Source of the DNA: a virus
Reading direction: 5' to 3' (one strand)
DNA length: 64,000 nucleotides
IMG/VR virus record: IMGVR_UViG_3300034072_000758
Location: 62,001 to 126,000 of that record
Position numbers and translations under genes: made by a program. The notes below the pieces were generated by a model that ran no database searches, was not told where the DNA came from, and was given only the letters and a program-made list of their open reading frames with translations. Shown in pieces: positions 52,924-55,961 of this stretch (position 1 is the stretch's first letter; the number at the start of each line of letters is the position of its first letter).

Positions 52924-52995
52924 GGGCCGTTAGCTCAACGGTAGAGCGTCAAACTCATAATTTGGGGGTTACTGGTTCGAATCCAGTACGGCCTA
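52924..52995 (+). tRNA. tRNA with anticodon CAT (Met, or Ile if lysidine-modified)
   Basis: Full cloverleaf: acceptor GGGCCGT/ACGGCCT with a G1-U72 wobble, D arm GCTC/GAGC, anticodon stem TCAAA/TTTGG with loop CTCATAA, variable loop GGGTT, T arm ACTGG/CCAGT with loop TTCGAAT, discriminator A. CCA is not encoded. Confidence 0.95.
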
Positions 52996-53009
52996 CAGCG
53001 GATAGTAAC

Positions 53010-53312
53010 ATGTTCCATTTCTCTCTTGGTGTCCGAAATCCTTTTCGATTGAAGAAATTCAACGAGACCTTGTTCCAAAAATATGGAAAATTGCCTATTA
53101 AAAACAAGGCTTGGGAAACTGAACTTAAGCTCGATACGGCAACCAAGATTTTTGACATTTATTTCGATTGGTCAATTAAGCAATCTCATGCGGGAATATA
53201 TTTTTCCGTATCAGTTCTTTGGCTCGATTTTAGTATCGAACTTTATGATATTCGACATTGGGATTATGACGCAGACCGTTGGGCGGACGATGATGCCAAA
53301 AGTCCTCAATAA
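53010..53312 (+). CDS. Hypothetical protein, 100 aa
   Basis: ATG 53010 begins just after the tRNA (MFHFSLGVRNPFRLKKF). Aromatic-rich and acidic at the end (DYDADRWADDDAKSPQ). No family recognised. Overlaps the next gene by 23 bases. Confidence 0.6.
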   Translation: MFHFSLGVRNPFRLKKFNETLFQKYGKLPIKNKAWETELKLDTATKIFDIYFDWSIKQSHAGIYFSVSVLWLDFSIELYDIRHWDYDADRWADDDAKSPQ

Positions 53313-53604
53313 ATACACTGACAAGGTTATCATCACTTCGGACGATGTTTATTGCGGTCGCCCTTCAAAGTGGGGTAATCCATTCGTTATTGGGAAAGAT
53401 GGTAGCCGTGATGATGTATGTGAAAAATTCGAAGATTGGTTCATCCAACAACGTCATTTATTGCGCGCCCTCCCCGAAATCCGTGGAAAGAACCTTATTT
53501 GTTTCTGTGCTCCCCAGCGCTGCCATTGTCATACGCTGATTAAATACGCGAACCTCCCACAGTACGAGTTCGATGAGTTGATGAGTGCTTTAGATGTTGC
53601 TTAG
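53290..53604 (+). CDS. DUF4326-domain protein
   Basis: About 104 residues from ATG 53290 or the following ATG. 'VYCGRPSKWGNPFVIGKDGSRD' and 'GKNLICFCAPQRCHCHTLI' are the family hallmarks, with paired Cys/His that could bind metal. Function unknown; common in phages. Overlaps genes on both sides. Confidence 0.8.
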   Translation: MMPKVLNKYTDKVIITSDDVYCGRPSKWGNPFVIGKDGSRDDVCEKFEDWFIQQRHLLRALPEIRGKNLICFCAPQRCHCHTLIKYANLPQYEFDELMSALDVA

Positions 53605-54805: not shown

Positions 54806-55108
54806 TTAGAGGCCCTTTACGACTGTTGCGTTCGCAAATTCTGCCGAAGCTGTGATAGCATTCTGGAAGAACGAAGCTGGCAGATTGTGGTCCGCACCGA
54901 ACTTAACAACAGTGTTGCTGATCTTGTTCAAAACAACTGGTTGAGCGGCATTGTTGATCAAAGTCACAACGCGGTCATACGAAGTTGTCAGGTTGCTGTC
55001 AACTGTCGCATTCGAGAAGTTAACAGTGTTAGCAACAGTTACGGTATAGAATGTCATACCGCCTAGAGTCGCCGAAGAAGCAGCGTGAGTATTATTTGGT
55101 AAAGCCAT
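54806..55108 (-). CDS. Putative small virion protein, 100 aa
   Basis: Begins MALPNNTHAASSATLGG after GGGAGG. Rich in Asn, Thr, Val and Ala like the fibre proteins of this phage ('ANTVNFSNATVDSNLTTSY'), with late-type promoter elements upstream. Decoration or minor structural role is inferred; no family recognised. Confidence 0.65.
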   Translation of the reverse strand: MALPNNTHAASSATLGGMTFYTVTVANTVNFSNATVDSNLTTSYDRVVTLINNAAQPVVLNKISNTVVKFGADHNLPASFFQNAITASAEFANATVVKGL

Positions 55109-55222: not shown

Positions 55223-55251
55223 TTGCGTTCGAAAAAGAGTGCCACTATAGT
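55223..55251 (+). promoter_or_regulatory. Putative promoter of the tRNA and minihelix array
   Basis: TTGCGT (55223-55228), 17-base spacer, TATAGT (55246-55251). The expected start is at the first hairpin. Confidence 0.5.
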
Positions 55252-55256
55252 ATGTA

Positions 55257-55285
55257 TATCGGAAGGCGGTAACGCTTCTTCGATA
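55257..55285 (+). ncRNA. GTAA-capped 5' hairpin of the array
   Basis: TATCGGAAGGCG pairs with 55273-55285 (12 base pairs, one bulged C at 55278) around a GTAA tetraloop at 55269-55272. It is followed by GCTAAG rather than CCA, then by the suppressor tRNA. Confidence 0.65.
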
Positions 55286-55290
55286 GCTAA

Positions 55291-55363
55291 GGGCTTTTAG
55301 CTCAGTGGTTAGAGCGGGAGACTCTAAATCTCCGCGTCGTGGGTTCGAATCCCACATTGCCCG
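55291..55363 (+). tRNA. Amber suppressor tRNA, anticodon CTA
   Basis: Cloverleaf with D arm GCTC/GAGC, anticodon stem GGAGA/TCTCC, loop CTCTAAA with the invariant T33, so the anticodon (55324-55326) is CTA and reads UAG. Variable loop GCGTC; T arm GTGGG/CCCAC with TTCGAAT. The acceptor stem GGGC/GCCC is interrupted by two U-U mismatches at pairs 5-68 and 6-67 before a final U-A. Discriminator is G. CCA is not encoded. The charged amino acid cannot be read from sequence. Confidence 0.9.
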
Positions 55364-55364
55364 C

Positions 55365-55399
55365 GTGGGGAGATTGTGGTAACGCAACTCCCCGCACCA
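55365..55399 (+). ncRNA. Acceptor-minihelix-like hairpin 1, ending ACCA
   Basis: GTGGGGAG (55365-55372), a bulged A, TTGTG (55374-55378), GTAA loop, CGCAA, CTCCCCGC: 13 base pairs. A396 and CCA 397-399 follow as a tRNA-like 3' end. It begins one base after the suppressor tRNA. Confidence 0.7.
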
Positions 55400-55406
55400 T
55401 ACTTAT

Positions 55407-55442
55407 GCTGAGGGGCGGGCGTAAGCCGGTCTCTCGGCACCA
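55407..55442 (+). ncRNA. Acceptor-minihelix-like hairpin 2, ending ACCA
   Basis: 55407-55420 pairs with 55425-55438 (14 positions, one G-G mismatch) around GTAA, then A and CCA (55439-55442). Confidence 0.7.
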
Positions 55443-55459
55443 AGTATATCGTTCTCTAT

Positions 55460-55494
55460 GCGGATGGTTGGGGTAATCCCGGCCACCCGCGCCA
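55460..55494 (+). ncRNA. Acceptor-minihelix-like hairpin 3, ending GCCA
   Basis: 55460-55472 pairs with 55478-55490 (12 base pairs and one A-C mismatch) around a GTAAT loop, then G and CCA (55491-55494). Confidence 0.7.
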
Positions 55495-55505
55495 GAGATT
55501 TTCAT

Positions 55506-55539
55506 GATGGGGGTAGGGTTAAACCTGCCCCTGTCGCCA
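55506..55539 (+). ncRNA. Acceptor-minihelix-like hairpin 4, ending GCCA
   Basis: GATGGGGGTAGG (55506-55517) pairs over all 12 positions, counting G-U, with CCTGCCCCTGTC (55524-55535) around GTTAAA, then G and CCA (55536-55539). Confidence 0.7.
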
Positions 55540-55571
55540 AAAAGCACAATGGAGATTTTCTAGTGCGTTAG

Positions 55572-55961
55572 ATGCCTGAATGGTATATCCGTGGTAAGCA
55601 AGAAGCTGAACCACACACTTGGGTTTATGTGTTCGTCCGAACAGACATGCCCGTCCCCCAGATTGCCGTGCAATCGGGTCATGCCGCGCTTGAAGCCGGT
55701 CATGCGTTTGATAAGCCTTCCATCGACCCTTCGTCGCTGATTATTCTGGCTGTCAAGAATAAAGAACAACTCACCAAAGCTTTGGAACACGTCAAATCCC
55801 TTGGCCTGAGAACCGTCGAGTTCTTCGAGCCTGATTGGGATTATGGGTTCACTTCGTTCGCTACTGAACCGCTCCAAGAGGATCAGCGCCGTCTTCTGCG
55901 CAAGTATCAACTCTGGAAGGGCCAGTCTACGTTCGTTCCCGAACTCATTGCGGCGGAGTAA
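55572..55961 (+). CDS. Peptidyl-tRNA hydrolase, type 2 (PTH2-like)
   Basis: 129 residues. 'WVYVFVRTDMPVPQIAVQSGHAALEAGHAF' matches the PTH2 N-terminal strand and the conserved AQ-x-x-HA helix (here VQSGHA). 'GLRTVEFFEPDWDYGFTSFATEP' follows the usual strand order. PTH2 frees tRNA from stalled peptidyl-tRNA; bacteria mostly use the unrelated Pth. It lies directly after the suppressor tRNA and minihelices, so a tRNA-recycling role in this island is likely. Confidence 0.8.
   Translation: MPEWYIRGKQEAEPHTWVYVFVRTDMPVPQIAVQSGHAALEAGHAFDKPSIDPSSLIILAVKNKEQLTKALEHVKSLGLRTVEFFEPDWDYGFTSFATEPLQEDQRRLLRKYQLWKGQSTFVPELIAAE

Follow-up and report, generated by a model that had tools for sequence, protein, structure and literature searches.

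The window analysed here, a stretch of 64,000 nucleotides, belongs to a 516,805-bp (516.8-kb) phage record with 59 tRNA matches. It contains an array of four hairpins with an amber suppressor tRNA gene on the 5' side and a PTH2-like gene on the 3' side:

55223-55251, + strand: weak sigma-70-like promoter, TTGCGT-17-TATAGT, picked out by eye (8/12 matches, below the scanner threshold)
55257-55285, + strand: GUAA-capped hairpin without CCA (MFE -12.8, z -3.5)
55291-55364, + strand: amber suppressor tRNA, anticodon CUA (63 bits against the Rfam tRNA model)
55365-55399, + strand: minihelix 1 (h1), 13 bp plus a bulged A, loop GUAA, ACCA; abuts the tRNA
55407-55442, + strand: minihelix 2 (h2), 14 positions including one G.G, loop GUAA, ACCA
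55460-55494, + strand: minihelix 3 (h3), 13 positions including one A.C, loop GUAAU, GCCA
55506-55539, + strand: minihelix 4 (h4), 12 bp, loop GUUAAA, GCCA; 34 nt
55563-55961, + strand: PTH2-like gene with amber leader, GTG-CGT-TAG(55569-55571)-ATG-CCT...; GGAG 8 nt before the GTG; alternative ATG at 55572

Near the locus lies a gene for a DUF4326 protein (53083-53604; Pfam E 1.6e-24). For the neighbouring ORF at 54806-55108, a search for relatives returned none.

The hairpin array and the suppressor tRNA

An initial annotation of this DNA described four hairpins, each with purine-CCA directly behind the helix, and this was confirmed for all four (ACCA, ACCA, GCCA and GCCA). The stem lengths it gave, 12-14 positions, also stand, while the details needed correction: there is a bulged A in h1, a G.G mismatch in h2 and an A.C mismatch in h3, and only the stem of h4 is free of mismatches and bulges. 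As 34-36-mers the hairpins fold with MFEs of -21.8 to -25.5 kcal/mol (z -3.2 to -5.3), and the whole 206-nt stretch reaches -108.5, against -70.5 in shuffles (z -8.5). The arrangement is not a product of chance: a descriptor for a hairpin of at least 11 bp and 28-33 nt, at -18 kcal/mol or below and followed by N-CCA, matched four times at the array, against a mean of 0.001 in 1000 dinucleotide shuffles of the same stretch (never two). Over 1.33 Mb of phage DNA, the same descriptor gave only scattered matches outside related loci. A covariance model built from h1-h4 had no other match in the 516.8-kb genome (E up to 5), and the remaining tRNA clusters, in this genome as in its relatives G004 and G006, contained single hairpins only, with no second array. 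Two conventional identities were considered and rejected, namely a dispersed palindromic repeat of the REP/MITE type, as the array holds the sole four copies in 516.8 kb, and an intrinsic terminator, as no T run lies 3' of the hairpins and the terminator scan reported no site on the + strand.

The minihelices are not recognised as tRNAs, since neither the RF00005 covariance model nor ARAGORN matches any of them; the tRNA matches of these programs in the window are confined to 52924-52996 and 55291-55364. In h1-h4 the helix spans 12-14 positions and is followed at once by a 3' RCCA, and a minimal RNase P substrate is defined by a continuous helix of about 12 bp with G1-C72 and by RCCA in this position. 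Bacterial RNase P (in vitro), some synthetases and EF-Tu accept minihelices of such size as substrates (PMC11221534).

The tRNA fold and CUA anticodon at 55291-55364, also called in the initial annotation, proved correct, and it is the only such tRNA that the CUA pattern found in the genome. It has a weak acceptor stem with two U.U mismatches and ends in G73-C74 with no encoded CCA. Many tRNA genes of the phage abut one another and end in the discriminator plus C only (for example the Phe/Ile/Ile genes, L122); the suppressor tRNA likewise ends G-C, and h1 starts at the very next base. Because h1 adjoins a CCA-less tRNA in the same way as the phage's abutting tRNA genes, it takes the place of a downstream tRNA, which supports the RNase P site proposed earlier at 55364/55365. 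A cut there would leave a 3' end that the CCA enzyme could complete. A fifth hairpin had been reported ahead of the tRNA; the GUAA-capped hairpin at 55257-55285 does exist, but it lacks CCA and is of another kind. As it starts just past the promoter-like element, it probably forms the stem-loop at the 5' end of the transcript rather than being a minihelix.

The PTH2-like gene and its amber leader

The PTH2-like ORF matches Pfam PTH2 (PF01981) with E=2.7e-4 and 21.6 bits, just under the cut-off of 23, and a profile made from 13 relatives of the protein matches solved archaeal Pth2 with E=2.9e-6. The Gly-Lys motif before AQ..HA, whose lysine is the catalytic lysine of cellular PTH2, is not present in the phage group, which has DLPxEQQxVQxxHA as against DLGMGKGKMVAQGGHA in 2zv3.

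The leader begins GTG-CGT-TAG in the window, ATG/GTG-TAG-GTG in mycobacteriophages and ATG-GCT-CAC-TAG, ATG-ACG-TAG or ATG-CTG-TAG elsewhere. An in-frame TAG within codons 2-13 of PTH2-like genes was seen in the window (55563-55571), in L004, L006, L108-L115, L118, L183-L203 and L281-L284, and in others. When the proteins were clustered at 70% identity, 37 of 58 clusters had such a codon, and a CUA tRNA lay within the fetched flanks in 31 of these 37 (eight loci set by hand), compared with 9 of the 21 clusters without an amber codon. We also looked, at 104 PTH2 loci that include some duplicate records, for the closest in-frame stop on the upstream side that has an ATG or GTG no more than five codons before it: this was TAG in 63 cases, TGA in one and TAA in none. 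No start codon follows the TAG in 49 of the 63 amber loci. In the window and the mycobacteriophages, an ATG or GTG directly after the TAG could start translation, so that read-through is not proven necessary there.

The PTH2-like ORF of phage XacN1 starts ATG-AAG-TAG (L118), and the authors who described this phage found no target for its suppressor tRNAs (PMC5852040). Judged from sequence, the amber leader of the PTH2-like gene is a candidate target of such orphan phage suppressor tRNAs. In L006, the gene after PTH2 (3319 onward) also begins with an in-frame ATG-TAT-GCA-TAG, so that genes other than PTH2 may have amber leaders as well. A PTH2-like gene at L160:11700 has an in-frame TAG inside the domain and a CUA tRNA 200 bp downstream.

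Minihelices and tRNA-like RNAs in other phages

At the DNA level, a search for near-identical relatives found nothing beyond tRNA bodies, and a covariance model of h1-h4 (R1) had no match in 20 related records. A suppressor-tRNA pattern run on IMG/VR returned 30 contigs, among them L153, which carries two 34-nt minihelices (12 bp, loop GUCAAA, NCCA). The order in L153 is PTH2-like gene, tRNA-like RNA, suppressor tRNA, minihelix, tRNA-like RNA, minihelix and suppressor tRNA, with 1-nt spacers. A broader search of PTH2 loci revealed two minihelices each in Myrna (with 1-nt spacers) and Phabba and three in L233, and ScoobyDoobyDoo has one, with loop CUAAA, beside a CUA tRNA and PTH2. Myrna, Phabba and ScoobyDoobyDoo are mycobacteriophages; the further carriers are two metagenomic phages. 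The element thus recurs, 34-35 nt long, with a 12-bp stem, NCCA and a T-loop-like GUCAAA/GUUAAA loop, and is spaced like tRNA genes. Its 3' end is ACCA in most relatives and UCCA in one L153 copy, and h4 aligns without gaps with the minihelices of Myrna, L153 and L233. In all five carriers named above the PTH2-like gene precedes the minihelices, and in the window it follows them. The view that the hairpins are acceptor/T-arm minihelices with RCCA is therefore supported both by their structure and by the CCA-ended minihelices at equivalent loci.

The neighbours of the minihelices vary. L233 has two CCA-less tRNA-like RNAs, each with a minihelix directly behind it, and the tRNAs and tRNA-like RNAs next to the minihelices of Myrna and L153 have, for the most part, a CCA and a predicted RNase P site of their own. 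Cane17 and other relatives have, at the corresponding place, CCA-ended tRNA-like RNAs with abnormal or missing D or anticodon arms; some of these are labelled tRNA-Ser or tRNA-OTHER in GenBank. RNAs of this sort, in which the D or anticodon arm is missing or the middle part is very long, and many of which carry CCA, adjoin the suppressor tRNA and PTH2-like gene at the following places:

L006:2353-2480, tRNA-like RNA
L150:2536-2815, tRNA-like RNA
L153:1290-1226 and 1111-986, two tRNA-like RNAs
L226:4382-4435, tRNA-like RNA
L248:4345-4404, tRNA-like RNA
L265:4333-4408, tRNA-like RNA
L282:2867-3071, tRNA-like RNA

A 12-bp minihelix is missing from many amber-PTH2 loci and is therefore not essential to the module. 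The nearest large relatives, G004 and G006, have no minihelices, no CUA tRNA by pattern and no full match to the PTH2-like gene (G004 has a weak 36-residue match), in records that may be incomplete; this joint absence suggests that the three behave as a unit. In a phage family of about 100 kb, which has no PTH2-like match, L173:1535-1568, L177:4862-4895 and L178:1746-1779 are each a lone, perfect 12-bp GUCAAA minihelix with GCCA, ahead of a gene and without an adjoining tRNA. A hairpin of XacN1, CCCACGGA...GCCA (L118:1850-1885), upstream of its PTH2-like gene, was not counted, as it stands alone and has 12 bp with an internal bulge.

Eight 34-mers align without gaps and show two-sided changes at 9 of 12 pairs. 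With h1-h3 and the ScoobyDoobyDoo hairpin added (gaps hand-padded with N), 96% of cells in the 12-member alignment are paired, two-sided change occurs at 13 of 14 pairs and G1:C is invariant in 12/12 members, although part of this covariation is built in, because most members came from a search demanding pairing. Shuffled controls were 68% paired (0/500 attained the observed value) and slid controls 40-52%. We also ran a pairing-free pattern, G-N9-GGGTCAAA-NCY-N7-RCACCA, on IMG/VR. Of 45 viral matches, 41 form at most 8 of 12 pairs and four form 11; these four are the minihelices of Myrna and Phabba, all at the PTH2/suppressor-tRNA locus. A similar pattern found 79 places in 84,980 bacterial and archaeal genomes, with a mode of 6 pairs and a maximum of 10 of 12; the bacterial matches, topped by 10/12 pairs in one MAG contig, were set aside as chance. 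Over about 90 phage records, model R2 matched strongly only at PTH2/tRNA-Sup loci and in the three L173-type phages, with one weak place in L266's record (E 0.011). The initial annotation had named stems without compensatory change in relatives as grounds for abandoning its proposal, and the stems of independent phages do carry compensatory changes. The loops in the window are mostly GUAA as against GUCAAA elsewhere, and h4 (GUUAAA, 34 nt) bridges both types; an independent origin of the GUAA-loop and GUCAAA-type hairpins is possible.

Possible function of the minihelices

The reading we favour, tentatively and with slightly less than even confidence, is that the four hairpins are discrete minimal tRNA mimics from a tRNA operon, probably acting as decoys for an acceptor-arm-binding factor. 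The hairpins would be co-transcribed with the suppressor tRNA and the PTH2-like gene, and the tRNA-processing machinery would excise 34-36-nt RNAs made up solely of an acceptor/T-stem helix and its encoded CCA, with an RNase P cut at each G1. Taken by itself, such discrete processing seems to us more probable than decoy function, and the anatomy of the array supports it. The freed CCA-ended helices may then occupy either a host effector that attacks tRNA or a housekeeping protein, for which EF-Tu, RNase P, the CCA enzyme and peptidyl-tRNA hydrolase are candidates. Growth inhibition of cells by minihelix RNAs has been reported (Hipps and Schimmel 1995, cited in PMC9976931). We prefer the decoy reading because it makes use of the traits that are conserved (helix length, G1:C and CCA) and not of those that vary (sequence and loop). 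The suppressor tRNA may be needed for the PTH2-like protein, or boost it, by reading the amber codon of its leader, and the whole locus could then work as a single module directed at tRNA 3' ends or peptidyl-tRNA. That this is a widespread phage module, in which the suppressor tRNA unlocks the amber-leader PTH2-like protein and acceptor-arm decoys shield the phage tRNAs from a host 3'-end factor, is a more doubtful extension.

The placement of h1 directly 3' of the CCA-less suppressor tRNA, where a cut leaves an end in G-C like the phage's tRNA-tRNA junctions, would equally be expected if the hairpins only marked RNase P cuts between tRNA and PTH2 mRNA and shaped 3' ends, the freed hairpins being waste; the paired arrangement in L233 fits this too. 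A single cut, however, needs no four tandem copies, and the linkers of h1-h4 contain no product, so that mere punctuation becomes less likely. In Myrna and L153, moreover, the neighbours are tRNAs or tRNA-like RNAs offering cleavage sites of their own. The initial annotation's suggestion of RNase P punctuation is thereby weakened as a main role, as h2-h4 separate nothing, and we regard it as unlikely. Less likely again is autoregulation, in which the PTH2-like protein would control its synthesis or stability by binding acceptor mimics in the transcript that encodes it. The PTH2 family binds tRNA acceptor arms, minihelices and PTH2 always share strand and neighbourhood, and in the window the gene directly follows the array. 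Yet the position of the array relative to PTH2 is reversed in the five other carriers and actinophage PTH2 genes look leaderless, so an operator in the 5' leader is not conserved.

GC-rich hairpins with GNRA caps are common RNA stabilisers, and the L173-type phages have one lone hairpin of this kind in a 5' region; the array could accordingly consist of ordinary stable mRNA hairpins or terminators with CCA nearby by coincidence. We consider this improbable given the fixed place of CCA behind every hairpin in independent phages, the constant length of 34-35 nt, the missing T-run behind each of h1-h4 and the shuffle and pattern controls. The least probable reading, to which we give very little weight, is that the minihelices are charged by a synthetase and function as carriers of amino acids or as non-ribosomal substrates. 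Some synthetases do charge minihelices (PMC9976931), but h1-h4 show no G3.U70 (Ala) and no apparent G-1:C73 (His), and discriminators and acceptor pairs vary freely among copies.

Our searches of the open-access literature on phage minihelices, tRNA-like decoys and suppressor/PTH2 links, with subscription papers and preprints largely outside reach, found no description of stand-alone acceptor-arm minihelix genes; such RNAs have until now been laboratory tools. This agrees with the initial statement that no such phage family had been described, except that other phages do carry the element, unannotated or misannotated as tRNA-Ser or tRNA-OTHER. The recurrence in unrelated phages suggests that these viral tRNA mimics form a class not described before. 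If made, the minihelices would be natural RNase P substrates and tRNA-end decoys, pointing to a baited host factor, and the amber PTH2 leader would offer a concrete, testable candidate target for phage suppressor tRNAs. Myrna, Phabba, ScoobyDoobyDoo and XacN1 are cultured phages, which makes the module experimentally accessible in laboratory strains.

The closest known counterparts are the model minihelix substrates (pATSer, MD1, Francklyn-Schimmel; PMC11221534), which share the 12-bp acceptor/T helix, G1-C72 and 3' RCCA; those are laboratory constructs, whereas the phage ones are natural genes that occur in tandem in phage genomes. With the tRNA clusters of this phage and of XacN1 (PMC5852040) the minihelices have in common a single strand, 0-1-nt spacing, CCA/C74 ends and tRNA neighbours, but unlike phage tRNA genes they have no D or anticodon arm and are unmatched by ARAGORN and Rfam RF00005. 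Viral mimicry of the acceptor end is also known from the tRNA-like structures of plant RNA viruses (PMC5723415), which are single 3'-terminal genome domains, in contrast to the short tandem elements of these DNA phages. Finally, the suppressor tRNA of the window resembles those of jumbo phages without a known target, as in XacN1 (PMC5852040), in being a CUA tRNA of a large phage; here, however, a candidate target can be named, the PTH2-like amber leader, and XacN1 has it too.
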